NCBI GenBank assembly: GCA_012518635.1
Contig: JAAYRT010000006.1
Location: 1 to 39,562, forward strand
Origin: Halanaerobiaceae bacterium
GTDB lineage: Bacteria > Bacillota > Halanaerobiia > Halanaerobiales > DTU029
Direction of reading: 5' to 3'
DNA: 39,562 bases
Below the pieces are notes generated by a model. It saw only the letters and a list, made by a program, of their open reading frames with translations. It was not told the origin of the DNA and searched no databases. Both the position numbers and the translations under genes were made by a program. Shown in pieces: positions 15,646 through 39,562 of this stretch; within the stretch, counting starts at the first letter, position 1; the number at the start of each line of letters is the position of its first letter.

Positions 15646-15744
15646 AAAAGCCAATAAAGAAGATGCTAATATATGCTAAAAAAAAGCTGTTCTAATAATA
15701 TTGCCTGATAGTGGAAATAAATAAATTAAAAAGGAGTAATGCAG

Positions 15745-16773
15745 ATGTTGAATTTTTTTAAGAGGGATAAGGATAAAAAAGAGCAGAAACTTGAAGATGT
15801 AATAGAAGATAAAAATAGAGAAAAATCTGTTGAGAGTGAAGGGGAAGGGAAAAAGGAAAAACAGGGCCTTTTTAGCAGATTGAAATCCGGCCTGAGTAAG
15901 ACCAGGGATGGGTTTATAAATCAGGTCAGCAGTCTATTTGCTTCCTATGGTAGGATAGATGATGAACTTTTTGAGGAACTGGAAGAGATTTTGATCCAGG
16001 CTGATGTAGGTGTAAGGACTACCATTCAGCTGGTAGAGGAACTGAAGGAACGGGTGGAAGAGGAAGGAATCAAGGAACCGGAAAAATTGAATGAGCTTTT
16101 CAGGGAACAATTGACTGAGCTTCTGAAGGCAGAATACACCAGATTGGAACTGGCAGATGGCCTGAATATATTAATGGTGGTTGGGGTAAATGGTGTAGGA
16201 AAGACCACCACCATAGCCAAGATTGCCCAGAGATATAAGAATGAAGGGAAGAGTGTCCTTCTTGCTGCCGGTGATACCTTCAGGGCTGCGGCCATAGACC
16301 AGCTGCGGGTCTGGAGTGAACGGATTGGAGTCAATCTCATTGCCCAGCAGGAGGGGGCAGATGCGGCAGCAGTTGCCTATGATGCTGTCCAGGCAGCTAA
16401 AGCCAGGGATGTTGACCTCCTGATTGTGGATACTGCCGGCCGCCTCCATACCCAGAAGAATCTCATGGAGGAGTTAAAGAAGGTAAAGAGGGTTATCGAA
16501 AGGGAGGGGGAAGGAAGCAATATTCAGGTCCTGTTGGTCCTGGATGCCACCACTGGACAGAATGCCATCAATCAGGCCAGGTTATTCCATGAGGCCATTA
16601 ATGTTGACGGTATTGCCTTGACCAAACTGGATGGCACAGCAAAGGGCGGTATTGTAGTTGCTATAAAAAATGAATTGGGTATTCCCATTAAATTAATCGG
16701 TGTGGGTGAAGCAGCAGAAGACTTACAGGATTTCAAGGCGGAAGACTTTGTGAAGGCCCTATTTATAGATTAA
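15745..16773 (+). CDS. ftsY: Signal recognition particle receptor FtsY
   Basis: A short, charged N-terminal region of about 45 residues precedes the NG GTPase domain. G1 is GVNGVGKTT (about 147-155), then DTFRAAA, DTAGRLHT (about 229) and the specificity motif TKLDGTAKGG (about 293). The end GVGEAAEDLQDF is the usual closing motif. It docks ribosome-SRP complexes to the Sec translocon through the paired GTPase Ffh, encoded at 19619. I chose the ATG at 15745 because AAGGAG at 15731-15736 is 8 bases ahead of it and only 2 ahead of the ATG at 15739. The product is 342 residues. Confidence 0.96.
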   Translation: MLNFFKRDKDKKEQKLEDVIEDKNREKSVESEGEGKKEKQGLFSRLKSGLSKTRDGFINQVSSLFASYGRIDDELFEELEEILIQADVGVRTTIQLVEELKERVEEEGIKEPEKLNELFREQLTELLKAEYTRLELADGLNILMVVGVNGVGKTTTIAKIAQRYKNEGKSVLLAAGDTFRAAAIDQLRVWSERIGVNLIAQQEGADAAAVAYDAVQAAKARDVDLLIVDTAGRLHTQKNLMEELKKVKRVIEREGEGSNIQVLLVLDATTGQNAINQARLFHEAINVDGIALTKLDGTAKGGIVVAIKNELGIPIKLIGVGEAAEDLQDFKAEDFVKALFID

Positions 16774-16788
16774 TGGAGATGAAGTCTT

Positions 16789-17559
16789 ATGCGGATAGGA
16801 TTTTTTGATTCCGGTATAGGCGGGCTTACTGTCCTTTATGATTCCCTGCGTTTGCTGGAAGACCAGGATTATATATATTATGCAGATATAGAGAATGTTC
16901 CCTATGGTACCAAGGATAAGGAGCTGGTAAAGGAGTATATCTTTACTGCCATTGATTTTATCATCAGGCAGGGGGTGGATGCCCTGGTCCTGGCCTGTAA
17001 TACTGCCACCAGTATTGCTGTCAGGGAATTAAGGGCCAGATATCAGATTCCCATTATTGGAATGGAACCGGCAGTAAAACCGGCTGTAAAGAATTCCAGA
17101 GAGAAGAGGGTGCTGGTACTGGCTACCCCCCTGACCCTGAAAGAGGATAAGTATGAGGATCTGGTCTCCAGGGTGGACCAGAATCATATAGTGGATTCTT
17201 TACCCCTGCCGGGTCTGGTAGAGTTTGCTGAAAATTATCGTTTCGAGGAACCGGCAGTAGAGGAGTATCTACGGAGGAAACTGGCTCCTTTTGACCTGGA
17301 GAAATACGGTACCATCGTCCTGGGTTGTACCCATTTCCTTTATTTCAAAAAAATGTTCCGACAGATTTTTCCTCCAGGGGTGGAGATAATAGATGGCCAT
17401 GAGGGAACCATCAGGCATCTGGCTAAAATCATGCAGATTCCACTGCGGCAGGAAGGGGTTAACCCTATTGATCTGCTGGACAGGCATGTCAGCCTGTATT
17501 TATCAGGAATAGAGGGAGACAGGGAAATCCTGCGAAAATATTTTGCTGTTCTTCAATGA
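16789..17559 (+). CDS. murI: Glutamate racemase
   Basis: The two catalytic cysteines are C70 in LACNTATS and C180 in GCTHF, with D7 in FFDSGIGGLT binding the substrate amine region and YYADIENVPYG close by. The 256-residue length is typical. It converts L- to D-glutamate for peptidoglycan stem peptides in the cytoplasm. The gene lies 15 bases after ftsY, so it is probably on the same transcript; TGGAGATGA lies before the ATG. Confidence 0.95.
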   Translation: MRIGFFDSGIGGLTVLYDSLRLLEDQDYIYYADIENVPYGTKDKELVKEYIFTAIDFIIRQGVDALVLACNTATSIAVRELRARYQIPIIGMEPAVKPAVKNSREKRVLVLATPLTLKEDKYEDLVSRVDQNHIVDSLPLPGLVEFAENYRFEEPAVEEYLRRKLAPFDLEKYGTIVLGCTHFLYFKKMFRQIFPPGVEIIDGHEGTIRHLAKIMQIPLRQEGVNPIDLLDRHVSLYLSGIEGDREILRKYFAVLQ

Positions 17560-17690
17560 TTTCTGCTTATTCCTGAAGTTTTTTTCAAAAAAAAATTCTT
17601 GTATTAAAATTATTATTGTGATATCATCTTAAAAAAGCAAATATACATTTATTAAATTGCCGGACTATAGTTAAGGTCTTTTTATTTTTC

Positions 17691-17699
17691 TGTTACAAT
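17691..17699 (+). promoter_or_regulatory. Extended -10 promoter for the citrate synthase gene
   Basis: TGTTACAAT at 17691-17699 fits the TGnTATAAT extended -10 pattern, with no clear -35. A second candidate upstream is TTGTAT (17599-17604), 17 bases, then TATCAT (17622-17627). Either would drive the gene at 17773. The rest of the 213-base gap after murI is A/T-rich and shows no gene. Confidence 0.5.
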
Positions 17700-17772
17700 C
17701 AGTATGGGAGTAGGACAGAAGAAAGTAACAGAAGGAAGATTAAATTAGGCGGAGAAGGAGTGAGTAGAAATT

Positions 17773-19044
17773 ATGAAAAACCGTGTAAATGAGTTGTTGA
17801 GTGATGTAAAGAATCCGGAGCTTAAGGAAAAATATAGAGAACTAATCCTGACCTTACTGGAAAAGGGTTATTTTCCTGGCCTTGAAGGAGTACCTGTCAT
17901 AAAATCTGGCATCAGCCATATAGACGGGGAGGAAGGAACCCTTACATATAGAGGTTATCCAGTACAGGAATTAGCGGAATATTGCACATATGAGGATATC
18001 TGTTATTTGCTGATACATGGTGATCTTCCCTTGCTCAAAGAAAGGGTCCAGTTGCGTAGTGAGCTTTTTGCCAAGAAGGATTTATCAGAAAGTGTCAGTA
18101 AGGTAATTATGGAGATGGATGAAAACCTCCATCCCATGTACATGTTGAGTTCCAGTGTTCTATTGTTACAGGCTGAAGACCAGGAATGTGCCTGTGTGAA
18201 CGATTATATGCTTAATTACCGGCGCGGCCTTAATTTGATAGGAAAACTACCCAGTATAATAGGTGTTTTCCGCAATAAGGATGCAGATTTTGCCGCCGGT
18301 AAAGAGTTTGATTCTTTTGCCCAATATTGTCTATATGTCTTTAATCCGGAACTGGCCATGGACAGGAATTGGGTAAATGTCTTTGAAAAGATTTTAATTT
18401 TACATGCTGACCATACCATGAATAATAGTACTTTCTCAGTCAGGGCTGTTGCCTCTTCACTGGCCAGTATTTATGCCTCAATTGCTTCGGCAATTAATTC
18501 CCTTTCCGGCCCCTTGCATGGTGGTGCCAATGAGAGAGCCATCAAGATGTTCGAGGAGATCGGTTCTCCGGATAATGTGGAGGCCTTTATCGAGCAGAAA
18601 CTGGCCCGTAAGGAAAAGATTATGGGGATTGGACACCGGGTCTATAAAACCTATGACCCCCGTTCCCTTTACATGAAGAACAAGATATTGCCCATGGTCT
18701 TTGGTGAAGAGAGTATTATCGAAGTAGATGAGGAGATGGTCAACCTCTATGAGATAGCGAGGAAGATTGAGCAGGTGGTATTGGAGAAGCTATCAGAGAA
18801 GAAATTATACCCGAATGTGGATTTCTGGTCAGGCTTGATTCTGAAGGCTCTCGGCATTGAACCTGAGTATTTTACCACTATCTTTGCCCTGGGCAGGATC
18901 CTGGGCTGGGTCTCCCACTGGATAGAACATATGAAAGTAAGAAATAAGATCTTCAGGCCAGAACAGCTTTATAATGGTATCGGAGTCAGGCATATTATTC
19001 TGGATACTGAAGAAGAAGCAGCTTCTACAAACAATGTTGTTTAG
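17773..19044 (+). CDS. Citrate synthase (citrate/2-methylcitrate synthase family)
   Basis: The catalytic set is present: a His in HADHTMNNST (211-214), H249 in LHGGANE, H288 in GIGHRVYK and D350 in NVDFWSG; SGISHIDGEEGTLTYRGYPV is the usual N-terminal block. The 423-residue length is a little above the 370-residue Bacillus type because of an N-terminal helix. It condenses acetyl-CoA with oxaloacetate, the first step towards 2-oxoglutarate. No aconitase or isocitrate dehydrogenase gene is in view, and it stands alone between its own promoter and terminator. A 2-methylcitrate or other acyl-CoA preference cannot be excluded by eye. Confidence 0.92.
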   Translation: MKNRVNELLSDVKNPELKEKYRELILTLLEKGYFPGLEGVPVIKSGISHIDGEEGTLTYRGYPVQELAEYCTYEDICYLLIHGDLPLLKERVQLRSELFAKKDLSESVSKVIMEMDENLHPMYMLSSSVLLLQAEDQECACVNDYMLNYRRGLNLIGKLPSIIGVFRNKDADFAAGKEFDSFAQYCLYVFNPELAMDRNWVNVFEKILILHADHTMNNSTFSVRAVASSLASIYASIASAINSLSGPLHGGANERAIKMFEEIGSPDNVEAFIEQKLARKEKIMGIGHRVYKTYDPRSLYMKNKILPMVFGEESIIEVDEEMVNLYEIARKIEQVVLEKLSEKKLYPNVDFWSGLILKALGIEPEYFTTIFALGRILGWVSHWIEHMKVRNKIFRPEQLYNGIGVRHIILDTEEEAASTNNVV

Positions 19045-19073
19045 AAGATTAGCATAAATTCTTTTGCAAAATT

Positions 19074-19106
19074 CTCCTGATGGAGTACTTCCATCAGGGG
19101 TTTTTT
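19074..19106 (+). terminator. Intrinsic terminator after citrate synthase
   Basis: CCTGATGGA (19076-19084) and TCCATCAGG (19090-19098) make a perfect 9-bp stem with a 5-base loop, followed by TTTTTT at 19101-19106. Confidence 0.93.
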
Positions 19107-19143
19107 ATTGAAAAAAATTTTTAATAAATTCAAGCTTAATTAC

Positions 19144-19173
19144 TTGACAGCAAATGATTTGTTATAGTATACT
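19144..19173 (+). promoter_or_regulatory. Sigma-A promoter of the ylxM-ffh operon
   Basis: A consensus TTGACA (19144-19149) is followed after 18 bases by TATACT (19168-19173). Transcription should begin near 19180, giving an 80-base leader before ylxM in which I see no strong structure. Confidence 0.85.
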
Positions 19174-19262
19174 AAACACTGTAAAGCAAAAATACTTAAC
19201 AGCTGACTTCCTGCTAGTGGCTTCAATTCAGAAAAATTTGATAGAGGGTATAGGTGGTCTAC

Positions 19263-19604
19263 ATGTTGGATAAAGTTATTGAAATTGGTATATTATTTGA
19301 TTTTTATGGCAGTCTGTTGACAGGTAAACAACAGGAGACCATCCAGTTATATTATTATCAGGACTTATCCTTGAGTGAGATAGCTGAAAGGCTGGAAATT
19401 AGCAGACAGGGTGTCTATGACCACCTGCACCGTGCAGAAGAGGCCTTGCGGGATTATGAAGAAAAACTGGGCTTGATTAATCGTTATAAACTACTGAAAA
19501 ATGAATTGGATGAATTGGAAAAAGCCATTAAGGAATATCAGATAGAGAATACGGTCAAGAGTAATTTGATCAAGAGGGTTGAAAAGATTAAAAAACACCT
19601 ATAG
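19263..19604 (+). CDS. ylxM: YlxM/p13-like SRP-associated DNA-binding protein
   Basis: The start LFDFYGSLLTGKQ-type block and a sigma-70 region-4-like helix-turn-helix (LSLSEIAERLEISRQGVYDHLHRAEEAL) define the YlxM family, which lies directly before ffh in most Firmicutes. A coiled-coil tail follows. In streptococci a homologue modulates the SRP; the DNA target, if any, is unknown. I chose the ATG at 19263 because relatives begin MLEK and AGGTGG is 5 bases upstream; a GTG at 19254 would add three residues. About 113 residues. Confidence 0.9.
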   Translation: MLDKVIEIGILFDFYGSLLTGKQQETIQLYYYQDLSLSEIAERLEISRQGVYDHLHRAEEALRDYEEKLGLINRYKLLKNELDELEKAIKEYQIENTVKSNLIKRVEKIKKHL

Positions 19605-19618
19605 GGAGGAAGTTATAG

Positions 19619-20956
19619 ATGGCATTTGAAGGGTTGGCGGAAAAGTTACAGAATGCCTTCAAAAAATTGCGGGGCAAGGGTAGGCTGAATGAACAGGATG
19701 TGAAGACAGCTCTTAAGGAAATCAGGATGGCCCTGCTGGAAGCTGACGTAAATTTCAAGGTAGTAAAGGATTTTGTTAAGAAAATAGAAGAGAGGGCTGT
19801 CGGCCATGAGGTTATGGAGAGTTTAACTCCAGCCCAGCAGGTTATCAAGATAGTAAATGAAGAATTGACAAGCCTGATGGGAGGCCAGAAAAGCGAACTT
19901 GTCTTTGCCGCCAAACCGCCAACAGTATTCATGATGGTAGGACTACAGGGTGCGGGAAAGACCACTCAGTGTGGGAAGCTGGCCCGTATTTTAAAGGAGA
20001 AAGGTAAAAACCCCTTGCTGGTTGCCGGGGATATTTACCGCCCGGCGGCAATTAAACAGCTGCAGGTCCTCGGAGAGCGGCTGGGAGTTCCGGTTTTCAG
20101 TATGGGAGACCAGCATAGCCCTGTAGATATTGCCAAAGCTGCTATCAACCATGCCAATACTGCCGGTAATGATGTGGTACTAATAGATACTGCCGGTAGA
20201 TTGCATATAGATGAGGCAATGATGGATGAATTGAAGGCTATCAAGACCAACATCAAGCCTCATGAGATATTACTGGTTGTTGATGCTATGACAGGACAAG
20301 ATGCAGTAAATGTAGCCCAGAACTTTGATGAGGCCCTGGGGATTGATGGAGTTATCCTGACCAAACTTGATGGAGATGCCCGTGGCGGGGCAGCCCTATC
20401 CATTAAGGCAGTTACCGGTAAGCCGATTAAATTTGTTGGTATGGGTGAGAAACTGGATGCCCTGGAACCCTTCCATCCAGACCGGATGGCTTCCCGTATC
20501 CTGGGCATGGGGGATGTCCTGACCCTGATCGAAAAGGCAGAGGCCAATATAAATGCCCAGAAAGCCATGGAGTTGGAGGAAAAACTGCGGAAGAATGAGT
20601 TTACCCTGGATGATTTTCTGGAGCAGATGGAACAGGTCAGGAATATGGGGCCACTGGAACAGATACTGGGCATGATTCCGGGTTTGTCCAGTGCCGGCCT
20701 GAAGAATCTCCAGGTGGATGAAAAGCAGCTGGACCGGATCCAGGCCATAATCTTCTCCATGACTCCGGAAGAGAGGAGGAATCCGGATATTATAAACGGC
20801 AGCCGGAGACGGAGGATTTCTGCCGGCAGCGGGACCACTATCCAGGATGTAAACCGTTTATTGAAACAGTTTAAACAGACCAAGAAGATGATGCGCCAAT
20901 TGAGCGGTATGACAGGAAAGGGTAAATTTAAAGGGAGATTTCCCTTTTTCCAATAG
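19619..20956 (+). CDS. ffh: Signal recognition particle protein Ffh (SRP54)
   Basis: N domain residues 1-90, then the GTPase with G1 [10 protein letters not shown] (108-117), [17 protein letters not shown] and [13 protein letters not shown]. The methionine-rich M domain from about 330 holds [13 protein letters not shown] and the RNA-binding loop [20 protein letters not shown]. It binds signal sequences of membrane proteins on the ribosome and 4.5S RNA and hands them to FtsY. The 445-residue length is normal. It follows ylxM by 14 bases with GGGAGG before the ATG. Confidence 0.98.
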
Positions 20957-28250: not shown

Positions 28251-29630
28251 TTGAAGCTGGATTATTTAAGGGATTTCAGGGATGAATTTGCTGGCTATAC
28301 GGAGCTGCGCCTGCAGGAAAATACCAATATTTATTTGAGATTGCTCAATGGCGATCTGGTTGATAATTACAAAAAGACTGCAGGAGGTGTTTCCGCAAGG
28401 GTCTATAAAGACGGGGTGTTTGGTTTTGCCTCCAGCCCCCTGATTGATAAAGGGAATGTCAGGGAGGTCATCAAAAAATCCGGGGAGAATGCCGTCCTGT
28501 TGGCAGGGATGGAAAGGCTGAATAAAGGAAACCTGGCTGAAGAAGGCCATGAGATTATCAAGGATTTCTCCACAACCAGGCCCAGGGCCTCCCGGAAAGA
28601 GATGATTGAATTTTTGCAGGAATTATATGATTATACAGTCAGGAAATATAGCGATATAAAGGCCAGTACCTTTGTACTGAACAGCCTGGATATGGAGAAA
28701 AACCTGGTGACTTCCTTTGATACATATGCCTACACCATGGTTCCCAGGACCATCCTGGTGATGAGCCTGGTCATGGAAAAAGACGGAATTATATATGACC
28801 TTTCTGATCTGGTAGGAGGATTGGGTCAATATGAAGACTTCTTTACTGAGCCAGAAAAAATATATGGACAGATAGACACCCTTTATAAAAGGTTGAGGGA
28901 GAAGGCAGAGGGGGTCTATCCTGAGGCAGGTTTCAAAGAAGTCATACTGGATTCGAAGATTTCCGGTATCCTGGCCCATGAAGCCATTGGCCATACAGTT
29001 GAGGCAGATTTCGTAAAAAGCGGTTCTGTGGCCAGGGACTATCTCAATAAAGAGGTTGGCTCAGAACTGGTCAATCTGGTTGATTTTGCTGCAGAATATG
29101 AGAATAAACCCTGTCCGGTCCCGGTCTATATCGATGATGAAGGGACAAAAGCGGAAGATGTGGTCATCATCAAGGATGGTATCCTGAAGAATTACATGAA
29201 TAATAAGGAACTGGCTCTGGAGTTTGGTACAGCACCAACCGGTAATGCCAGGGCTTATGCTTTTTCTGATGAACCCCTGGTCAGGATGAGGAATACGGCC
29301 TTCCTGCCTGGAGAGCATACCCTGGATGAGATGATTGCCTCAATTGAGGATGGTTATTACCTGATTGAGACCAATAACGGGCAGGCAGATGCTACCAGTG
29401 AGTTCATGTTCGGAGTTACTTTCGGTTATGAGATTAAGAATGGAAAGCTGGGCAAGGCTATCAAAGAGACCACTATCTCCGGTGTGGCCTTTGATGTACT
29501 GAAGACGGTCAGCATGGTCTCCGATGAGATGTACTGGTCCATCGGGGGGATGTGTGGTAAAAAGCAGAGCATACCGGTGAGTTTTGGCGGACCGGCCATA
29601 AAATGCAAGGTAAATATAGGGGGTAAGTAA
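28251..29630 (+). CDS. tldD: Metalloprotease TldD
   Basis: The zinc site is ILAHEAIGHTVEAD (HExxxH near residue 243), the TldD hallmark, with GNARAYAFSDEPLVRMRNT and the C-terminal FGGPAIKC. With TldE it forms a heterodimer that degrades unfolded peptides and matures some ribosomally made peptides such as microcin B17. It starts with TTG at 28251 behind GAGGGGG; no better ATG exists nearby. 459 residues. tldE starts two bases after its stop codon. Confidence 0.95.
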   Translation: MKLDYLRDFRDEFAGYTELRLQENTNIYLRLLNGDLVDNYKKTAGGVSARVYKDGVFGFASSPLIDKGNVREVIKKSGENAVLLAGMERLNKGNLAEEGHEIIKDFSTTRPRASRKEMIEFLQELYDYTVRKYSDIKASTFVLNSLDMEKNLVTSFDTYAYTMVPRTILVMSLVMEKDGIIYDLSDLVGGLGQYEDFFTEPEKIYGQIDTLYKRLREKAEGVYPEAGFKEVILDSKISGILAHEAIGHTVEADFVKSGSVARDYLNKEVGSELVNLVDFAAEYENKPCPVPVYIDDEGTKAEDVVIIKDGILKNYMNNKELALEFGTAPTGNARAYAFSDEPLVRMRNTAFLPGEHTLDEMIASIEDGYYLIETNNGQADATSEFMFGVTFGYEIKNGKLGKAIKETTISGVAFDVLKTVSMVSDEMYWSIGGMCGKKQSIPVSFGGPAIKCKVNIGGK

Positions 29631-29631
29631 T

Positions 29632-30918
29632 ATGGAATTACTCGATAAGTGTCTGGCGCTACTGAAGGAAAAAGGTGCTGACGAGGGAGAGGTATCCCTG
29701 ACCCATTTCCAGAATGAAGAGATGGAATTGAAGGCTGGTGAAATCAGCCTCCTGCGTTCCAGGGATGAGTACCATCTGACCCTGCAGGCGATTGTGGATA
29801 AGAAAAAGGCCAGTATCCAGATCAATAAGATAGATGATGAGGCCATTGCAGAGGCTGTAACTGAGCTGCTGAGGAATGCTGAAAATTCCCAGGCGGATGA
29901 AGCAAACGAGGTCTCAGGCCAGATTCAGGAGAGGGAATTCAGTGATTTCAAAGATAATTATGATCCGGAGCTGATGTATAAAAGACTGGATAGGTTCAGG
30001 GAAAAGGCTGAGGCTGATTACCCGGACCTGGTCCTGGAAGGGGCTCTCCTGGAGTATCAGAATAAATTCAATTATTACCGGAACACAAAGGGGGTAAAAC
30101 TGTCTTCCAATTATGATAAGTATTTATTTTATGCCAGCTTTTTCGGCAGGAGGGATGAGCTCACATCTTCCATGAACGGTACAGGTATTGCCCTGGAGAA
30201 CCTGGAAGGAGATTTATATGAACTGGCTTCCCTGCCTTCTTTAATGAGGGAGGCGGTTGAACATCTGGATGCAAGATTAATAGATGGGAAAAAATTCAGT
30301 GGTGATATCCTTATTACACCGGATTCCCTGAGTGGGCTCCTGTATTCAATCTTATCCCATCTGGGTAACAGCATGTTAATTGCTGGCACTTCCTATTTCA
30401 AGGACAAATTAAATGAAAAGGTCCTGAATGAAAAGTTTACCCTGAGGACAGAGCCGGTTTCAGAATATCTGGCTGTTAAAGATTATTATGGCGGAGATGG
30501 TATTATCAACCGCAATGATTATATCTTCGAGAAGGGTGTTCTAAATAATTATCTGCTGGATTTATACGGTTCAAAAAAGACCGGCCTGGAGCGGGGGCCT
30601 TCGACTGGAAGTAATTTAGTGGTTGAGGCCGGGGATAAATCCCTTCCTGAAATGATAGCTTCCATTGACAGAGGGATTATCCTGGGCAGGTTTTCCGGCG
30701 GCCATCCGGCTACAAATGGGGATTTTTCCGGGGTGGCTAAAAACAGTTATTATATAGAAGATGGAGAGATAAAATATCCCATAAAGGAAACCATGATTAG
30801 CGGCAATCTCTTTGAACTATTCCAGAATATTGTGGGGATTAGCAGGGAGAGGGTTAACTTTGGTTTTAATTTTTTCCCCTATATCCATGCCAGGGAGATA
30901 GTTATTTCTTCAAGATGA
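29632..30918 (+). CDS. tldE: TldE/PmbA, partner of TldD
   Basis: A 428-residue protein of the TldD/PmbA fold without the HExxxH motif, which marks it as the non-catalytic TldE partner. NYLLDLYGSKKTGLERGPSTG and the C-terminal blocks EDGEIKYPIKETMISGN and GNLFELFQNIVGIS match the PmbA family. It begins at ATG 29632, two bases after tldD ends, and the pair is surely co-transcribed. No precursor-peptide gene was seen beside the pair. Confidence 0.93.
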   Translation: MELLDKCLALLKEKGADEGEVSLTHFQNEEMELKAGEISLLRSRDEYHLTLQAIVDKKKASIQINKIDDEAIAEAVTELLRNAENSQADEANEVSGQIQEREFSDFKDNYDPELMYKRLDRFREKAEADYPDLVLEGALLEYQNKFNYYRNTKGVKLSSNYDKYLFYASFFGRRDELTSSMNGTGIALENLEGDLYELASLPSLMREAVEHLDARLIDGKKFSGDILITPDSLSGLLYSILSHLGNSMLIAGTSYFKDKLNEKVLNEKFTLRTEPVSEYLAVKDYYGGDGIINRNDYIFEKGVLNNYLLDLYGSKKTGLERGPSTGSNLVVEAGDKSLPEMIASIDRGIILGRFSGGHPATNGDFSGVAKNSYYIEDGEIKYPIKETMISGNLFELFQNIVGISRERVNFGFNFFPYIHAREIVISSR

Positions 30919-30929
30919 GCCTGAAAGAT

Positions 30930-30958
30930 TTGACTTGTCTATCTCTTTCTGCTATTAT
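30930..30958 (+). promoter_or_regulatory. Promoter of the pur operon
   Basis: TTGACT (30930-30935), 17 bases, then TATTAT (30953-30958) with an extended TGC ahead. Transcription should begin near 30965, some 26 bases before the first aptamer. Confidence 0.85.
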
Positions 30959-30990
30959 ATATTTGTAATTCGGAAAAAATTGAATATTTA

Positions 30991-31059
30991 CCTCATATAT
31001 TTGTGGGGATATGGCTCACAAGTTTCTACCAGATAGCCGTAAACTATCTGACTATGAGG
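30991..31059 (+). promoter_or_regulatory. Guanine riboswitch aptamer
   Basis: P1 is CCTCATA (30991-30997) with TATGAGG (31053-31059), perfect. P2 is TTGTGGG with CTCACAA around the canonical L2 GATATGG. J2/3 is GTTTCTACC. P3 is CAGATAG with CTATCTG around the canonical L3 CCGTAAA. The specificity base (position 74 of the xpt aptamer) is C31052, in GACTATGAG, which predicts guanine or hypoxanthine and not adenine. All conserved loop and junction bases seen by eye are intact. Confidence 0.95.
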
Positions 31060-31061
31060 GA

Positions 31062-31163
31062 AGTGTACTTAGGGTTCCGGTCTGCACCTACAGATGTCTG
31101 GACCGAGCGGTACAGATATATTTTATATATTACACCGAAGGGATAAAAGCCCAGGCGGGGAGG
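31062..31163 (+). promoter_or_regulatory. PRPP-type riboswitch aptamer (ykkC family), in tandem with the guanine aptamer
   Basis: The ykkC core blocks are present in order: GTACTTAGGGTTCC (31065-31078), GGACCGAGCGGTACAG (31100-31115), an A/T hairpin, ACACCGAAGGGATAAAAGCCC (31132-31152) and GGGGAGG (31157-31163). GTACT at 31065-31069 can pair with GGTAC at 31109-31113, and TCTG/CAGA makes an inner hairpin. The wording closely matches the PRPP members I recall from thermophilic clostridia, and tandem placement behind a guanine aptamer before pur genes is the known PRPP context. Guanidine and ppGpp variants are the alternatives. Confidence 0.88.
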
Positions 31164-31210
31164 TTCTACTCATGTCAAAAAAAAGTAGATATTTCCGCCT
31201 GGTTTTTTTT
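31151..31210 (+). terminator. Regulated intrinsic terminator of the pur leader
   Basis: CCAGGCGG (31151-31158) pairs perfectly with CCGCCTGG (31195-31202), with inner pairing TCTACT/AGTAGA, then eight T at 31203-31210. Its 5' arm overlaps the last conserved part of the PRPP aptamer (31145-31163), so aptamer and terminator should exclude each other. It is 66 bases before the purD start. Confidence 0.95.
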
Positions 31211-31275
31211 AATATCAGGAAAATTTCTTGTCTTTAAGCTGCCCAGGCAGCAAAACCGGGAAGGAGGGGGTAGTG

Positions 31276-32550
31276 TTGAAAGTACTGGTCATTGGTAATG
31301 GAGGGAGGGAGCATGCCCTTAGTTGGAAGCTGGCCTGCTCCGGTAAAGTAAAAAAAATATACATAGCACCGGGAAATCCAGGAACTGGAGAATTGGGAGA
31401 GAATATCCCTATCGAGGCACTGGATTTTTCTGCTTTAGTGAAATTCGCCAGGGATGAGGGGGTTGATCTGACCTTTGTCGGCCCGGAAGAACCACTGGTA
31501 AAGGGGATTGTAGATAGGTTTCAGGAAGAGGGATTGAGGATTTTCGGCCCCAATAAGGAGGCGGCCAGGCTGGAAGGGAGCAAGGTTTATTCCAAATGGT
31601 TTATGAAAAAATATCAGATACCTACAGCAGAATATGAGGTGTTTGATGATGCAGAGGAAGCCATTGCCTATATAAAGGGGAAGGAATTACCCCTGGTCAT
31701 TAAGGCAGAAGGACTGGCTGCAGGGAAGGGGGTCATAGTGGCCAGGACCAGGGAAGAAGCCCTGGCCGGGGTCAATTCTATCCTGGTGGATAAGGTCTAT
31801 GGTTCAGCCGGAGTCAGGATAGTAGTGGAGGAGTTCCTTACCGGGGAGGAAGCTACTATACTGGCTTTTACAGATGGCAAAACCATTGTCCCCATGCTGG
31901 TTTCCCAGGACCACAAACAGGTTTATGAAAAGGACCAGGGGCCTAATACGGGAGGAATGGGGGCCTATGCTCCAGCACCCCTTGTAGACCAGGCCTTGAT
32001 GGAGCGGGTTTACAGGGAGGTCCTCCTGCCCACTTTACAGGGCCTGCAGAGTGAAGGCATCGATTACAGGGGAGTCCTCTATTGTGGGCTCATGATAAAA
32101 GACGGGGTACCTAAAGTGCTGGAATATAATGTGCGTTTTGGTGACCCGGAAGCCCAGGTCATTTTACCATTATTGAAATCAGACCTGGTGGAGATAGCAG
32201 AGGCGGTAATCGAAGGCCGGCTGGAGGAGCGGGAGATAGAGTGGCATGATAAAAAGTCCCTCTGTGTGGTCATGGCCTCAGGCGGCTATCCCGGGGAATA
32301 TGCCACCGGGAAAGAGATTACCGGCCTGGAAGAAGCCGGTTCCCTGCCTGATATACAGGTCTTCCAGGCAGGGACAAAATGGGAAGGAGATAAGTTATTG
32401 ACTGCCGGGGGCAGGGTGCTGGCGGTGACTGCAACCGGGGACAGTTTTGAAGAAGTCAAAGAGAAGGCCTATAGGGCTGTTGATAAGATCTATTTCCCTG
32501 ATTTCCATGTCCGCCGGGATATCGGCTGGAAAATATTCAGGGATAGCTAG
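31276..32550 (+). CDS. purD: Phosphoribosylamine-glycine ligase
   Basis: KVLVIGNGGREHALSW is the PurD N-terminus. The ATP-grasp domain has LPLVIKAEGLAAGKGVIVA and DHKQVYEKDQGPNTGGMGAYAPAP, and VLEYNVRFGDPEAQVILP holds the metal ligands. It joins glycine to phosphoribosylamine, step 2 of purine synthesis. The TTG at 31276 gives MKVLVIG and stands 8 bases after AAGGAGG (31261-31267); GTG at 31273 is the alternative. About 424 residues. The leader is controlled by the tandem riboswitch. Confidence 0.96.
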   Translation: MKVLVIGNGGREHALSWKLACSGKVKKIYIAPGNPGTGELGENIPIEALDFSALVKFARDEGVDLTFVGPEEPLVKGIVDRFQEEGLRIFGPNKEAARLEGSKVYSKWFMKKYQIPTAEYEVFDDAEEAIAYIKGKELPLVIKAEGLAAGKGVIVARTREEALAGVNSILVDKVYGSAGVRIVVEEFLTGEEATILAFTDGKTIVPMLVSQDHKQVYEKDQGPNTGGMGAYAPAPLVDQALMERVYREVLLPTLQGLQSEGIDYRGVLYCGLMIKDGVPKVLEYNVRFGDPEAQVILPLLKSDLVEIAEAVIEGRLEEREIEWHDKKSLCVVMASGGYPGEYATGKEITGLEEAGSLPDIQVFQAGTKWEGDKLLTAGGRVLAVTATGDSFEEVKEKAYRAVDKIYFPDFHVRRDIGWKIFRDS

Positions 32551-32643: not shown

Positions 32644-33165
32644 ATGACAGCAAAAGTTGGTATTCTAATGGGAAGTGATTCTGATTTACCGGTAATGAAG
32701 GATGCTGCTGAGGTACTGGATGAGTTTCAGATTCCCTATGAACTGACAGTCATATCTGCCCACCGCAATCCGGAAAAGCTTTTCCGCTATGCCGGGAGTG
32801 CAGAGGAGAGGGGATTGAAGGTAATTATTGCAGGGGCAGGAGGTGCAGCCCATCTGCCCGGTGTAATTGCCGCCCATACAGTTTTGCCTGTAATCGGGGT
32901 GCCCATCAAGACCTCTACTCTGAATGGCCTGGATTCCCTATTTTCCATAGTCCAGATGCCTGGCGGGGTCCCGGTTGCTACTGTAGGGATCAATGGGGCG
33001 AAGAATGCCGGTTTACTGGCAGTACAGATGCTGGGGCTGGCTGATGAGGCCTTACAGGAGAGATTTACAGAGTATAAAAAGGCAATGGCGGAAAGGATAG
33101 ACGATGTCGGTGCTGAAGTGGAGAGACTGGGCTATCAGGAGTATCTGAAGAAAAGGGGTAGTTAA
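32644..33165 (+). CDS. purE: N5-carboxyaminoimidazole ribonucleotide mutase, class I
   Basis: [30 protein letters not shown] (catalytic His) and [17 protein letters not shown] are class I PurE motifs; class II, which carboxylates AIR directly, has different loops. 173 residues. The normal partner PurK, which makes N5-CAIR, is not in this operon. The start has an AGGAGGTG site. purB follows by 2 bases. Confidence 0.95.
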
Positions 33166-33167
33166 AC

Positions 33168-34559
33168 ATGTACAAGCGGAATATTTTTGAGAATATCAGT
33201 CCTCTGGACCACCGTTATTCCCTGCCCCGGGAGGATTTCCAGGAATATGCTCAGTATTTATCCGAGAAAGCCAGGATAGGATACCAGGCCAGGGTAGAGG
33301 GGGCCCTGGTTAAGGTCCTGGCCAGGAGGGGTATCTGCAGCCAGGAGGCAGCCCGGGAGATCCTGGGGGCCATAGAGGAGATTACTCCGGAGGAGGTTTA
33401 TGAGGAAGAGAGAAAGACCAGGCATGATATCAGGGCACTGGTCAATTGTATCCAGCGGAAGGTCAGCCCTGCGGCCAGGCCTTATGTGCATTTTACAACA
33501 ACCTCCTTTGATATAGTGGATACAGCCAATTCCCTCCGTTTCAAGGAGGCAAGCGAGAAACTGCTGCTGCCCAGATTATATGAGCTGGAGAAATTGTTGA
33601 TGGAGATTGCCCTGCGGGAGAAGGATACCCTGCAGATAGGCAGGACCCATGGCCAACATGCAGTCCCGATAACCTTTGGTTTTGCTATGGCCGAATATGT
33701 CAGCAGGCTGGGGAACAGGATCAGGGAGATTAGGGAGAAGAGCCAGAGGCTGGTAGGGAAAATTGCCGGTGCCGTTGGAGCCTATAATGCCGGTCATCTT
33801 TTCTTTGCTGATCCAGAGGAATTTGAAAGGGAGGTCCTGGCTGAACTGGGACTGGAGCCTGGTTCCCATTCTACCCAGATAGTTGAGCCGGAAGCCATGA
33901 CAGATTTTATCCATGCCCTGGTTTCCTGTTTCGGGGTCCTGGCCAATCTCAGTGATGATATGCGCCACCTACAGCGTTCGGAGATAGGCGAGGTGGGGGA
34001 ATACTTTGCTGCTGAGCAGGTAGGTTCTTCCACTATGCCCCATAAGCGGAATCCCATTAATTATGAGAATGTAAAGAGCCTCTGGAAGAAATTCATGCCG
34101 GGGATGGTAACAGTATATATGGACCAGATTTCCGAGCACCAGAGAGATTTGACTGATTCTGCTTCCAGCCGTTTCCTGCCGGAAATTGCAGCAGGTCTTC
34201 TGATGGCTGTGCAGAGATTGCAGAGGGTTCTGGGCAGGATGCAGGTAGATAGAGAGAATCTGGAGAAGAACTTTGCCATGAGCAGGGAGATGATTGTAGC
34301 CGAACCCCTCTATATACTGCTGGCTTCCCACGGTCATCCGGATGCCCATGAGGCAGTGCGGAGATTGACCCTGGAGGCAGAGGAAAAGGGGATGCCTTTA
34401 CGGGAACTGCTGTTGGAGAAGGATGAATTGAAGACCTATTGGGAGAGGTTTACAGAAAGGCAACGGGATTTACTGCTTAATCCGGAGCGATATACCGGTA
34501 TTGCTGCTGATAAGACAGAGAGGGTAGTGGAAAACTGGAAAAAAGAATTGGGAATATAG
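33168..34559 (+). CDS. purB: Adenylosuccinate lyase
   Basis: The fumarase/lyase signature GSSTMPHKRNPINYE lies near residue 285, and RTHGQHAVPITFG holds the catalytic His region. RHDIRALVNCI and HFTTTSFDIVDTANS are further family blocks. It splits SAICAR to AICAR and adenylosuccinate to AMP. 463 residues. Confidence 0.96.
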   Translation: MYKRNIFENISPLDHRYSLPREDFQEYAQYLSEKARIGYQARVEGALVKVLARRGICSQEAAREILGAIEEITPEEVYEEERKTRHDIRALVNCIQRKVSPAARPYVHFTTTSFDIVDTANSLRFKEASEKLLLPRLYELEKLLMEIALREKDTLQIGRTHGQHAVPITFGFAMAEYVSRLGNRIREIREKSQRLVGKIAGAVGAYNAGHLFFADPEEFEREVLAELGLEPGSHSTQIVEPEAMTDFIHALVSCFGVLANLSDDMRHLQRSEIGEVGEYFAAEQVGSSTMPHKRNPINYENVKSLWKKFMPGMVTVYMDQISEHQRDLTDSASSRFLPEIAAGLLMAVQRLQRVLGRMQVDRENLEKNFAMSREMIVAEPLYILLASHGHPDAHEAVRRLTLEAEEKGMPLRELLLEKDELKTYWERFTERQRDLLLNPERYTGIAADKTERVVENWKKELGI

Positions 34560-34572
34560 GAGGGAAACAGGA

Positions 34573-35280
34573 ATGGAGAAAAAAGAGTTAATGTATGAAG
34601 GTAAGGCCAAGATAATATTTAAGACTGCTGATGAGGATAAGGTAATAGTAAAGTTTAAGGATACTGCAACAGCCTTTGACGGTAAGAAAAAGGGCGAGAT
34701 TGAGGAGAAAGGTTTGCTGAATGCAGCCATTTCAGCCATATTCTTTAAATTACTGGAGGAAAAGGGCATCCCCACTCATTTTGTGGAGCTGATTACTGTT
34801 GATGAGATGCTGGCCAGGAAGGTAGAGATAATACCCATTGAGGTAGTGGTGAGGAATATTGCTGCCGGCAGCCTGGTGAGGAGGTTGGGTTTCCCGGAGG
34901 GAGAGGCACTGGAACACCCCATCCTGGAGTTTTACTTCAAGGATGATGACCTGGGAGATCCTCTGATGAATGAGTATCATATCTTTGGTAAAAAATTGGC
35001 TACAGCTGAGGAATTAGAGGTAATCAAAAAAATGGCCTTTGAGATAAATGAAGTCCTTATCGCCTTCCTGAAGGAGAAGGGTATTGAATTAGTGGACTTC
35101 AAGCTGGAATTTGGCCGGGATGATAATGGAAAGATTTATCTGGCCGATGAAATTTCACCGGATACTTGCCGTTTCTGGGACAGCGAGACAAATGAAGTGC
35201 TGGATAAGGACCGTTTCCGTAAGGACATGGGTAATGTAGAGGAAGCTTACCGGGAAGTGCTGGCAAGATTGCAGGACTAA
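34573..35280 (+). CDS. purC: Phosphoribosylaminoimidazole-succinocarboxamide synthase
   Basis: MYEGKAKIIFKT is the ATP-binding N-terminal strand pair; VVVRNIAAGSLVRRLG, ELVDFKLEFGRD and LADEISPDTCRFWD are the two standard SAICAR synthase signatures. It joins aspartate to CAIR. 235 residues. It lies 13 bases after purB, and the usual purS-purQ-purL genes do not follow it here. Confidence 0.97.
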   Translation: MEKKELMYEGKAKIIFKTADEDKVIVKFKDTATAFDGKKKGEIEEKGLLNAAISAIFFKLLEEKGIPTHFVELITVDEMLARKVEIIPIEVVVRNIAAGSLVRRLGFPEGEALEHPILEFYFKDDDLGDPLMNEYHIFGKKLATAEELEVIKKMAFEINEVLIAFLKEKGIELVDFKLEFGRDDNGKIYLADEISPDTCRFWDSETNEVLDKDRFRKDMGNVEEAYREVLARLQD

Positions 35281-35329: not shown

Positions 35330-36727
35330 ATGACAGAATTCTATGATCTGGCAGAGGACAAGATGAAGGAGGAATGTGGTGTCCTGGGTATCTTTTGTCC
35401 GGAGAGGGCCAGTGACATTCCTTTCCTGTCCTATCTAGGTCTCCTTTCTTTGCAACACAGGGGTCAGGAGAGTGCCGGTATCTGTATTAATCAGAAAGGA
35501 AATTTTAAAATACATAAGGGGATGGGCCTGGTCGAGAATGTTTTCAAGCAGGAGAAACTGGCCGGCCTGGCCGGGGAGATGGCCATAGGCCATGTTCGCT
35601 ATTCCACTACCGGCTCTACTTTAGCAGCCAATATTCAACCCCTATTGATTAGCTGTATAAAGGGGGATCTGGCTCTGGCCAATAACGGAAACCTGATTAA
35701 CGGCCCGGAACTGAGATTGAGTCTGGAATCTCACGGCTCTATCTTCCATTCCAGCCTTGATACAGAGGTCATTGCCCATCTGGTAGCCCGTTCCTTTGAG
35801 GAAAATATCATTGATGCTTTTCAACAGAGTCTGTATCAGCTGAAGGGAGCCTTCAGTATGGTGGCTCTGACTGCAGACAGCCTGCTGGCCTGCCGGGACC
35901 CCTATGGTTTCAGGCCCCTGGTCCTGGGCAGGTTGGGAAACGGTTATGTGGTGGCATCTGAAACCTGTGCCTTTGATCTAATGGGTGCGGAATTCTTAAG
36001 GGAAGTGGAGCAGGGAGAACTGTTGATAATCAATAAAGAAGGGTTGAAGAGTATTAAATATGCCAGTGAAAGGCCCGGCCGTTTCTGTGTTTTTGAGTTT
36101 ATTTATTTTGCCCGGCCGGACAGTCATTTCCTGGGGAAAAATGTCCACCTGGCCAGGAAGGCCATGGGCCGGGAACTGGCTGCAGAATTGAATATAGAGG
36201 CTGATCTGGTGATACCGATACCCGATTCCGGAACAGCAGCAGCCCTCGGTTTTTCGGAGGAATCTGGCATCCCCTTTTCCCAGGGTATCCTGCGCAACAG
36301 ATATATAGGGAGGACATTTATCCAGCCCATGCAGGAGATCCGTGACCTGAAGGTCAGGATAAAACTGAGTCCGGTCAAGGAGATCATAAAAGGGAAAAGG
36401 GTTATCCTGGTGGATGATTCCATTGTCCGGGGAACAACCAGCAAACAGATTATCAGCAGTGTCAGGGAAGCCGGTGCCACAGAGGTACATCTGGCCATAT
36501 CTTCTCCACCGGTCAAGGACCCCTGTTTTTATGGTTTGGATACCTCCAAAAGAAAGGATCTTATTGCCAGAGAGATGAGTCCAGAGGAGATTGCCAAATA
36601 TATTGGTGCAGATTCCTTGACCTATCTTAGCCATGAGGGCCTGCTGAAATCTCTGGATGCGGATGGTACAGGGTTCTGTACTGCCTGTTTTACCGGAGAA
36701 TATCCATTAGAAGTAAAGAAAAGTTAA
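35330..36727 (+). CDS. purF: Amidophosphoribosyltransferase
   Basis: The propeptide MTEFYDLAEDKMKEE precedes C16, the Ntn nucleophile that becomes the N-terminus (CGVLGIF). The glutaminase half has LQHRGQESAGI and GHVRYSTTG; the transferase half has the PRPP loop ILVDDSIVRGTTSKQ. Cysteines in RFCVF, DPCFYG and GFCTACF match the four ligands of the [4Fe-4S] cluster in the Bacillus-type enzyme. It makes phosphoribosylamine from PRPP and glutamine, the committed step, which fits PRPP sensing in the leader. 465 residues. Confidence 0.97.
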   Translation: MTEFYDLAEDKMKEECGVLGIFCPERASDIPFLSYLGLLSLQHRGQESAGICINQKGNFKIHKGMGLVENVFKQEKLAGLAGEMAIGHVRYSTTGSTLAANIQPLLISCIKGDLALANNGNLINGPELRLSLESHGSIFHSSLDTEVIAHLVARSFEENIIDAFQQSLYQLKGAFSMVALTADSLLACRDPYGFRPLVLGRLGNGYVVASETCAFDLMGAEFLREVEQGELLIINKEGLKSIKYASERPGRFCVFEFIYFARPDSHFLGKNVHLARKAMGRELAAELNIEADLVIPIPDSGTAAALGFSEESGIPFSQGILRNRYIGRTFIQPMQEIRDLKVRIKLSPVKEIIKGKRVILVDDSIVRGTTSKQIISSVREAGATEVHLAISSPPVKDPCFYGLDTSKRKDLIAREMSPEEIAKYIGADSLTYLSHEGLLKSLDADGTGFCTACFTGEYPLEVKKS

Positions 36728-36739
36728 GGGGGAACTGCA

Positions 36740-37768
36740 ATGGGCTTAAAATACAGTGATGCCGGTGTAAATATAGATGCCGGAAACCAGTTTGTGAAAA
36801 AGATAAAGAAGGATGTAGAGGAAACCTTTAATCCTGCTGTTTTACAGGGGATAGGCGGTTTTGCCGCCCTATATGCCCCCGATCTGGGCACCTATAAGGA
36901 GCCGGTCCTGGTCTCAGGTACTGATGGTGTAGGTACTAAGTTGAAGATTGCCTTTTTGTTGGATAAACATGATACAGTAGGTATAGATCTTGTGGCCATG
37001 TGTGTCAATGATATCCTGACAATTGGGGCCAGGCCCTTATTTTTCCTGGATTATCTGGCTGTTGCCAGACTGGAAACAGAAAAGGCTGCTGCCATTGTTT
37101 CCGGAATCGCCAGGGGCTGTAAGGAGGCAGGCTGTGCCCTGATCGGCGGTGAGACTGCTGAGATGCCCGGTTTCTATCAGCCCGGGGAATATGACCTGGC
37201 TGGTTTTGCCGTAGGTATTGTGGACAGGGAGAAGATGATTACCGGGGAAAGGATTAAGGCTGGGGATAGGATTATAGGCCTGGCTTCCAGCGGCTTACAT
37301 AGTAATGGCTATTCCCTGGTCAGGAAAGTTTTCCTGGAGAAGGAAAATCTTGACCTGCAGGAAGCCCTGGAAGAGGGTGGTAAATCCCTTGGGGAAATCC
37401 TACTGCAGCCTACCAGAATATATGTGCAGACCATCCTGAAACTGCTGGAGGATTATGATATCAAGGGTCTGGCCCACATAACTGGAGGAGGCCTGCTGGA
37501 GAATGTTCCGCGGATTTTACCTGAAGGATTGACAGCCAGGATAGAGAAAGACAGCTGGCCGGTGGCTGAGGTGTTTAAGGAACTACAGAGACTGGGTGGG
37601 ATTGCTGAAGAAGAAATGTACCGGACCTTTAATATGGGCATAGGCATGGCAGTAATCGTAGGGAATGAAGAAGCAGATAGTGTAATGGAGGCTGCCTCTA
37701 ATCTGGGTGAGGAGGCCTATCTCATCGGAGAAATCGTCCAGGACGATGCAGGGATAATCATAGAGTAG
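36740..37768 (+). CDS. purM: Phosphoribosylformylglycinamidine cyclo-ligase
   Basis: LKYSDAGVNIDAGN at the start, VSGTDGVGTKLKIAF, ALIGGETAEMPGFY and GLASSGLHSNGYSLVRK are the PurM motifs for metal and nucleotide binding. It closes the imidazole ring to give AIR. 342 residues. It lies 12 bases after purF and is followed by a 99-base gap. Confidence 0.97.
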   Translation: MGLKYSDAGVNIDAGNQFVKKIKKDVEETFNPAVLQGIGGFAALYAPDLGTYKEPVLVSGTDGVGTKLKIAFLLDKHDTVGIDLVAMCVNDILTIGARPLFFLDYLAVARLETEKAAAIVSGIARGCKEAGCALIGGETAEMPGFYQPGEYDLAGFAVGIVDREKMITGERIKAGDRIIGLASSGLHSNGYSLVRKVFLEKENLDLQEALEEGGKSLGEILLQPTRIYVQTILKLLEDYDIKGLAHITGGGLLENVPRILPEGLTARIEKDSWPVAEVFKELQRLGGIAEEEMYRTFNMGIGMAVIVGNEEADSVMEAASNLGEEAYLIGEIVQDDAGIIIE

Positions 37769-37867
37769 CCTTTCTAAATGCTTTAATAATCCAAATAAAC
37801 TCAGTTAAATGAGAATGATTTGTTGAGCTCAGAAGTTTACTTATCTAAAGATAGAGGTGTTGAAACC

Positions 37868-38470
37868 ATGTTAAAGATTGGAGTATTGGTTTCCGGTAAT
37901 GGCAGCAACCTACAGGCTATTATCGATAAGATAGAGGCAGGAGAATTGAAGGCTGAGATAAGTTTAGTTATCAGCGACCGGGAAGAGGCCTTTGCCTTAA
38001 AGAGAGCAGCCAATCATGGCATCGAAGGTTTGTTTATTGACCCGGAAAGATTCGGGAATAAGAGGGAATTTGAAGAAAGACTGGTCCAGCTTTTGAAGGA
38101 AAGAGGGGTAGAGCTGGTAGTCATGGCCGGTTTCATGCGCCTCCTTGGCCCTTGTTTTATCAGGGAGTTCCAGCAGCAGGTCATGAATATTCATCCATCC
38201 CTGCTCCCTTCCTTTCCCGGTTTACGGCCACAGAGACAGGCTCTGGAACATGGGGTGAAGATTAGCGGCTGTACCGTACATTTTGCCGATGAAGGTATGG
38301 ATACCGGGCCGATTATTCTGCAGGGAGCCGTTCCTGTATATGATGATGATACGGAAGAGACCCTGAGTGCCCGTATTCTGGAGAAAGAACACGAACTTTA
38401 TCCGGAAGCCATCAAACTATACAGTGAAGGCAGATTAAAGATTGAGGGCAGGAAGGTCAGGATATTATAG
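37868..38470 (+). CDS. purN: Phosphoribosylglycinamide formyltransferase
   Basis: KIGVLVSGNGSNLQAIID binds the phosphate; the catalytic triad is N107 and H109 in NIHPSLLPSFPG and D145 in GMDTGPI. It transfers formyl from 10-formyl-THF to GAR. The ATG at 37868 gives this standard start, with AGAGGTG 8 bases ahead; an upstream TTG at 37820 has no ribosome site and would add 16 unusual residues. 200 residues. Confidence 0.96.
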   Translation: MLKIGVLVSGNGSNLQAIIDKIEAGELKAEISLVISDREEAFALKRAANHGIEGLFIDPERFGNKREFEERLVQLLKERGVELVVMAGFMRLLGPCFIREFQQQVMNIHPSLLPSFPGLRPQRQALEHGVKISGCTVHFADEGMDTGPIILQGAVPVYDDDTEETLSARILEKEHELYPEAIKLYSEGRLKIEGRKVRIL

Positions 38471-38568: not shown

Positions 38569-39562
38569 ATGGCAAAGATTAAAAGGGCCCTGCTCAGTGT
38601 TTCCAATAAGCAAGGTATAGTCGATTTTGCCAGGGAACTGGAGAACCTGGGAATTGAGATTATTTCAACAGGTGGTACATATAGAATGTTGTCAGAGGCC
38701 GGTGTAAAGGTAATCCCTATAGAAGAGGTGACCGGTTTCCCGGAAATGATGGATGGAAGGGTAAAGACACTGCATCCCAATATACATGCCGGGATACTGG
38801 CCCTGAGGGACAGGCGGGAGCATATGGAGGAGCTGGAAAAACAGGGTATAACTCCTATCGATCTGGTGGTCTGTAATCTCTATCCCTTTGCTGAGACTAT
38901 TGCCCGGGAAGGCGTGACACTGGCTGAGGCAGTGGAGAATATAGACATAGGCGGGCCGACCATGATAAGGGCTGCAGCCAAGAATTTTTTAGATGTGGCA
39001 GTTGTAGTGAATCCGGAGGATTATGATTTTATCATTAAGGAGTTAAAGGGAAATGATTCTACTCTGAGCGAAGAGGTTACTATGAAATTGGCCTATAAGG
39101 CCTTCCAGCATACGGCTGAATATGATTATCTGATACAGGATTATCTACAAAAGCTTGTTTATAAGGTAGAGGAAGGAGATTTTCCTGAAATACTCCTGAG
39201 CAAATATAGGAAGAAGCTGGACCTCCGTTATGGAGAGAACCCCCATCAGAAGGCTGTCTTCTATGAGGAACTGGAGCAAAATGAACCTTCTGTATCCACA
39301 GCCAGGCAGCTCCATGGCAAGGAATTGTCCTTCAATAATATCAATGACAGTAATGGGGCATTGGAACTGGTTAAGGAATTTACCGATACTCCAGCAGTGG
39401 CCATAATCAAACATGCCAATCCCTGTGGTATGGCGATTGGCAGCACCTTACTGGAGGCCTACAGGAAAGCCTATGAGGGGGATCCCCTGTCTGCCTATGG
39501 GGGAATCATAGCCTTGAATGGCCAGGTTACAGGGGAACTGGCCAGGGAAATTGCCGGGGAAA
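38569..39562 (+). CDS. purH: Bifunctional AICAR transformylase/IMP cyclohydrolase (3' end outside window)
   Basis: The frame is open to the last base, giving about 331 residues of an expected 510. The N-terminal MGS-like cyclohydrolase domain has [43 protein letters not shown] and [16 protein letters not shown]. The transformylase domain begins with [11 protein letters not shown] and includes [13 protein letters not shown], with the catalytic Lys-His pair. AAGGGGAG precedes the ATG. It performs the last two steps to IMP. No terminator is visible before it, so it belongs to the pur transcript. Confidence 0.97.

Follow-up and report, generated by a model that had tools for sequence, protein, structure and literature searches.

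A predicted tandem guanine-PRPP riboswitch ahead of the purDEBCFMNH operon of a Halanaerobiaceae bacterium, with comparative evidence on a strand that its two aptamers may share

Tandem guanine-PRPP riboswitches form a published class in which guanine promotes and PRPP prevents termination, giving an IMPLY gate (PMC5912903). In the B. megaterium tandem, the PRPP aptamer undergoes more in-line cleavage near its 5' end with guanine and less with PRPP (PMC5912903). Mutual exclusivity of the PRPP P0 helix and the guanine P1 helix was predicted from one mFold structure of the T. mathranii leader (PMC6031431), and according to a 2022 review the exact structural switch of the tandem is still to be established (PMC9481103). 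A literature search of main texts brought up no more recent work on how the tandem operates.

The leader described here lies in the window, i.e. the whole stretch of 39,562 nucleotides that was analysed, from an incomplete Halanaerobiaceae assembly (1.48 Mb, 72.65% complete). It lies between the stop of a TldD/PmbA-type gene at 30918 and the TTG start of purD at 31276. A guanine aptamer directly 5' of a PRPP aptamer, one terminator in common and purine genes downstream were found. Judged from its sequence, the leader very probably controls the purDEBCFMNH operon as a tandem guanine-PRPP riboswitch that has a single transcription terminator. As such it is one more ordinary example of a known, experimentally validated class (Sherlock et al. 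2018) and does not found a new one. The two-input design is already known; what is new is comparative evidence for two sensors competing over one strand. The features of the leader are as follows.

30930..30958, + strand: candidate sigma-70 promoter, TTGACT-N17-TATTAT with TG ahead of the -10 (10/12 matches)
30991..31059, + strand: guanine aptamer (Rfam match, sequence, folding)
30991-30997/31053-31059, + strand: guanine aptamer P1
30999-31007/31015-31023, + strand: guanine aptamer P2
31030-31036/31044-31050, + strand: guanine aptamer P3
31052, + strand: C74, the guanine specificity residue
31054..31058, + strand: strand AUGAG, shared between guanine P1 (as its 3' half) and, alternatively, distal P0 (paired with 31169-31173)
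31059..31167, + strand: PRPP (ykkC 2b) aptamer (Rfam match, folding, PRPP model)
31059-31062/31164-31167, + strand: PRPP aptamer P0
31064-31069/31109-31114, + strand: PRPP aptamer P1
31115-31121/31125-31131, + strand: PRPP aptamer P2
31140-31142/31150-31152, + strand: PRPP aptamer P3 (GGG/CCC)
31145..31210, + strand: single intrinsic terminator, stem 31145-31168/31186-31208 and T run 31203-31210 (sequence and folding)
31169..31173, + strand: CUCAU, which can pair with the shared strand instead, A31168 being bulged; in the terminator-hairpin loop, adjoining the upper 5' strand

The sequence-only reading had placed a 3-base gap between the aptamers and a ykkC aptamer at 31062-31163. The gap is absent, guanine P1 ending at 31059 and PRPP P0 starting at 31059/31060. 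The ykkC aptamer is present with different limits, its P0 starting at that position and closing at 31164-31167, beyond 31163. One strong terminator common to both aptamers had also been proposed, and folding of the stem at the listed positions bears this out; its 5' strand takes up the 3' strands of P3 and P0 in the PRPP aptamer. An automatic terminator scan made no call at this terminator because its loop limit was 8 nt, and folding reveals it.

In the window leader, AUGAG runs into the P0 strand GGAA (31059-31062), and the two are jointly complementary to UUCU-(A)-CUCAU at 31164-31173. At a second tandem locus of the same genome, CGAGGGAA pairs with UUCCUUCG, and the change of nt 77 from U to C is accompanied by matching A-to-G changes in P1 as well as in the extended P0. 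Tandem loci were picked by anchored extraction, many of the loci L126-L154, in opposite orientation, being left out. All 82 tandem loci have a shared strand of 9-12 nt. Most Desulfosporosinus members retain just a three-pair GAG/CUC extension, and most of the collected lone PRPP loci also carry an extended P0.

Pairing of the shared strand was evaluated by exchanging 3' flanks between loci. Distal pairing was better with the own flank both in 55 distinct tandem loci (0/2000 swaps) and in 41 distinct lone PRPP loci (0/2000 swaps). For the 82 tandems, the mean number of Watson-Crick pairs at nt 75-80 was 4.20 with the own flank versus 3.36 with swapped flanks (0/1000), and the duplex energies were -7.24 and -6.09 kcal/mol, respectively (0/200); these counts ignore relatedness. 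The same holds for the partner of nt 77, which is G in 14/17 tandems having C there, while among the 65 having U it is G in 5 and A in 35. Swapped flanks were given the same optimisation, and C77 strands combined with U77 flanks yield G in 15%. On a FastTree tree of the aptamer cores, parsimony at nt 77 gave 6 changes, one of them a joint change to a Watson-Crick pair, and 157 of 500 permutations were as good. As there are few independent changes at nt 77 on the tree, the covariation is inflated by relatedness; the tree counts being no better than chance, sharing of one strand by P1 and P0 across many lineages is held to be well supported by the sequences but not proven.

Folding energies, which cover secondary structure alone and leave tertiary contacts unscored, were calculated for several transcript lengths. 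With the 3' end at 31180, the optimal fold containing guanine P1 (-54.4 kcal/mol) and that containing the extended P0 (-52.5 kcal/mol) are within 2 kcal/mol of each other; once the terminator is complete, the P1 state is the more stable (-71.0 vs -56.9 kcal/mol). At 3' ends of 31171-31192 without ligand, the pair probability is 0.86-0.96 for guanine P1 and up to 0.12 for the extended P0. A near balance of states ahead of terminator completion is what a ligand-biased switch requires.

We lean slightly towards the following general reading. In guanine-PRPP tandems the 3' strand of guanine P1 would double as the distal part of the 5' strand in an extended P0, which lone PRPP switches use as well; the gate would be a three-way exchange between guanine P1, extended P0 and terminator, with the guanine aptamer attached to a pre-existing strand. 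The competition proposed for guanine P1 and PRPP P0 can now be expressed as specific, testable base pairs. A possible but rather unlikely alternative is that the aptamers compete by steric clash alone, with no exchange of a shared strand, as offered in PMC5912903. P1 and P0 do abut directly in the window leader, and the change counts on the tree do not establish covariation, but own partners are favoured in the swap tests on the 82 tandems and, separately, on the lone PRPP loci, and the length of the shared strand is nearly fixed.

With strand exchange, guanine would fix the shared strand in guanine P1, PRPP P0 would be weakened and the terminator would form (OFF). PRPP would steady P0 and P3, which retain the 5' strand of the terminator, and transcription would stay ON even with guanine. 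If both ligands are absent, pairing of 31054-31062 with 31164-31173 as the extended P0 could serve as an antiterminator (ON); the computed ligand-free energies slightly favour guanine P1 over the extended P0, which would count against such a no-ligand ON state. An IMPLY output, OFF only at high guanine and low PRPP, is expected for the window leader, being taken over from the class.

The identity of the second aptamer was examined with two covariance models. Using cmscan, the Rfam Guanidine-I model RF00442 matched 31058-31159 of the + strand with 64.1 bits, a margin of 1.1 bits over the gathering score of 63. A PRPP-specific match was not found among the Rfam models on the leader region, and therefore we built our own PRPP covariance model from an alignment of 24 lone PRPP-type loci of other lineages. 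Because a 25-base pattern matching the aptamer's 3' end had been used to gather these loci, the model test is independent over the remaining aptamer. The model was run on the window and the genome's second locus, on two codA tandems of Priestia and on 30 loci with high RF00442 scores. The window scored 97.4 bits and the second locus 89.5 bits. The Priestia (B. megaterium-type) codA tandems, which are from the same species group as the B. megaterium codA switch studied experimentally (PMC5912903), scored 90.5 and 87.6 bits, both below the window. Other PRPP-type loci scored 92-111 bits and loci with guanidine-I letters 30-52 bits, a two-peaked distribution.

Ligand-contact residues were assigned from the PRPP crystal structure (PMC6031431), with the numbering aligned by motif and without the T. 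mathranii sequence itself.

31062, 31063, 31107, 31108, + strand: contact residues A5, G6, G48 and C49, 5' side
31135, 31136, 31154, + strand: contact residues C77, C78 and G96, middle
31161, 31162, 31163, + strand: contact residues A103, G104 and G105, 3' side

All ten residues checked are kept in the window. A pyrimidine at 49, G at 96, A5 G6, A103 G104 G105 and a P0 helix are the letters and structure of a PRPP 2b aptamer, while guanidine-I would be expected to have A in place of C31108 and to lack structured tails such as those forming P0 here. The sequence thus supports a PRPP-type second aptamer, C49 setting it apart from guanidine-I and G96 from ppGpp aptamers. That it would instead be a guanidine-I or ppGpp sensor on the ykkC fold is very improbable: the Rfam match is to Guanidine-I, though barely over threshold, and a single G96A change turns PRPP into ppGpp specificity (PMC6031431), but C49 and G96 are both PRPP-type, the tails that form P0 are there, the window far outscores guanidine-I-type loci with the PRPP model, and purine genes follow downstream. 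On the PRPP-model scores we rejected the guanidine-I reading of the RF00442 match; exclusion of a ppGpp sensor would rest on G96 and gene context. The PRPP subtype (2b) named in the sequence-only reading is hence borne out by two covariance models, contact residues and gene context, and the lack of a covariance match to a PRPP model, which it had named as counting against it, did not occur. Of the Rfam matches it called for, those to the purine model and to the ykkC fold (as RF00442) were obtained and a PRPP-specific one was not. Rfam places PRPP switches at or under the Guanidine-I cut-off, and mislabelling or missing them is easy.

The Purine model RF00167 matched 30973-31074 of the + strand with 93.5 bits (cmscan, E 3.5e-16; curated cut-off used, 37 bits), and the match has a three-helix fold, the conserved core and C at position 74. 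The guanine aptamer at 30991-31059 and its specificity C at 31052, as first read from the letters, are thereby confirmed. That this aptamer is a degenerate leftover, so that the leader would in practice work as a PRPP ON switch alone, is hardly credible: some other tandems do have altered guanine core letters (AUAAGG; UC/CC at J3/1) and the same extended P0 occurs in lone PRPP switches too, but every core letter is intact in the window, as in the purD-leader copies of the same genus. The altered cores occur in tandems L023, L053, L067, L069, L072 and L112 (AUAAGG in L2; U/C for A73), with C74 kept; to judge by these letters, the ligand specificity or function of such aptamers may have drifted.

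A lax-threshold Rfam scan of both strands of the region gave nothing else near its gathering score, and the whole leader folds with z = -3.4 relative to shuffles. Two promoter-type matches were found where chance alone would give 1.8 in a region this large, and the candidate promoter is backed mainly by its position just past the stop of the upstream gene. Directly upstream is a pair of TldD-like and PmbA/TldE-like genes (28251-30918), both well below the curated equivalog cut-offs.

The earlier reading of a downstream pur operon containing purF holds, the order being purD-purE-purB-purC-purF-purM-purN-purH.

31276..32550, + strand: purD, first gene controlled, start TTG (TIGR00877, 560.6 bits)
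32644..33165, + strand: purE
33168..34559, + strand: purB (TIGR00928, 321.7 bits, slightly below the 326.2 cut-off, though inside the pur operon)
34573..35280, + strand: purC
35330..36727, + strand: purF, whose substrate is PRPP
36740..37768, + strand: purM
37820..38470, + strand: purN
38569..39562, + strand: purH, continuing past the window end

Elsewhere in the window, smc, ftsY, a citrate synthase-like gene and ffh are found in that order (12088-20956). The citrate synthase-like gene is an unusual neighbour between ftsY and ffh, and is below the curated cut-offs shown.

Among 61 relative genomes, 36 carry RF00442 matches, and all 42 matches directly adjoin a Purine match. The closest riboswitch relatives are in Halanaerobiales bacterium CRAIB_MAG80, Halothermothrix sp. 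DTU029 and a Halanaerobiaceae MAG. The second tandem of the source genome is located ahead of a permease gene.

G000:C86:7844-8039 (locus L005), - strand: second guanine-PRPP tandem

The protein behind it has 446 amino acids and matches Xan_ur_permease (PF00860, 170 bits), a purine/uracil-type permease. Compared with the window copy, its P3 (AGG/CCU) and the letters of P0/P1 differ by matched changes. The family set includes at least four further genomes with equivalent permease tandems (L158, L159, L160, L163). Among the collected tandems, purD (27), purE (26) or a gene related to this permease (16) is the nearest recognised downstream gene, and among lone PRPP switches purE (24) or the permease (18); permeases are therefore a common first cistron of PRPP-controlled operons. 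Lone PRPP switches are often ahead of a permease-purE-purB operon (L006, L010, L014, L019, L041, L044, L091, L119 and others). The main text of the 2018 paper (PMC5912903) does not mention an association of lone PRPP switches with permeases, and in a literature search of main texts no PRPP switch was described together with a permease.

A Halanaerobiaceae-type member and a permease twin in one genome join the sole natural IMPLY-gate RNA of the 2022 review (PMC9481103), and the added value is the multi-lineage evidence on the shared strand, the paired permease switch and the corrected boundaries. Like the B. megaterium codA tandem (Sherlock et al. 2018, PMC5912903), the window leader has a guanine aptamer followed by a ykkC 2b aptamer and one terminator, and the dual-pairing strand is also present in the Priestia loci L029 and L098 (AUGAGUAAAAA/UUUUUGCUCAU). 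The B. megaterium tandem controls codA, whereas that of the window would control the purDEBCFMNH operon, and the window P0 differs in being GGAA/UUCU with a bulged A. The PRPP-contact residues are shared with the T. mathranii tandem (Knappenberger et al. 2018, PMC6031431); there, exclusivity of P0 and P1 came from one sequence, whereas pairing was here compared over 82 tandem loci. Lone PRPP switches (H. modesticaldum purB, F. ignava purC) have the same aptamer and the same kind of terminator overlap but, unlike the window leader, no upstream guanine aptamer.
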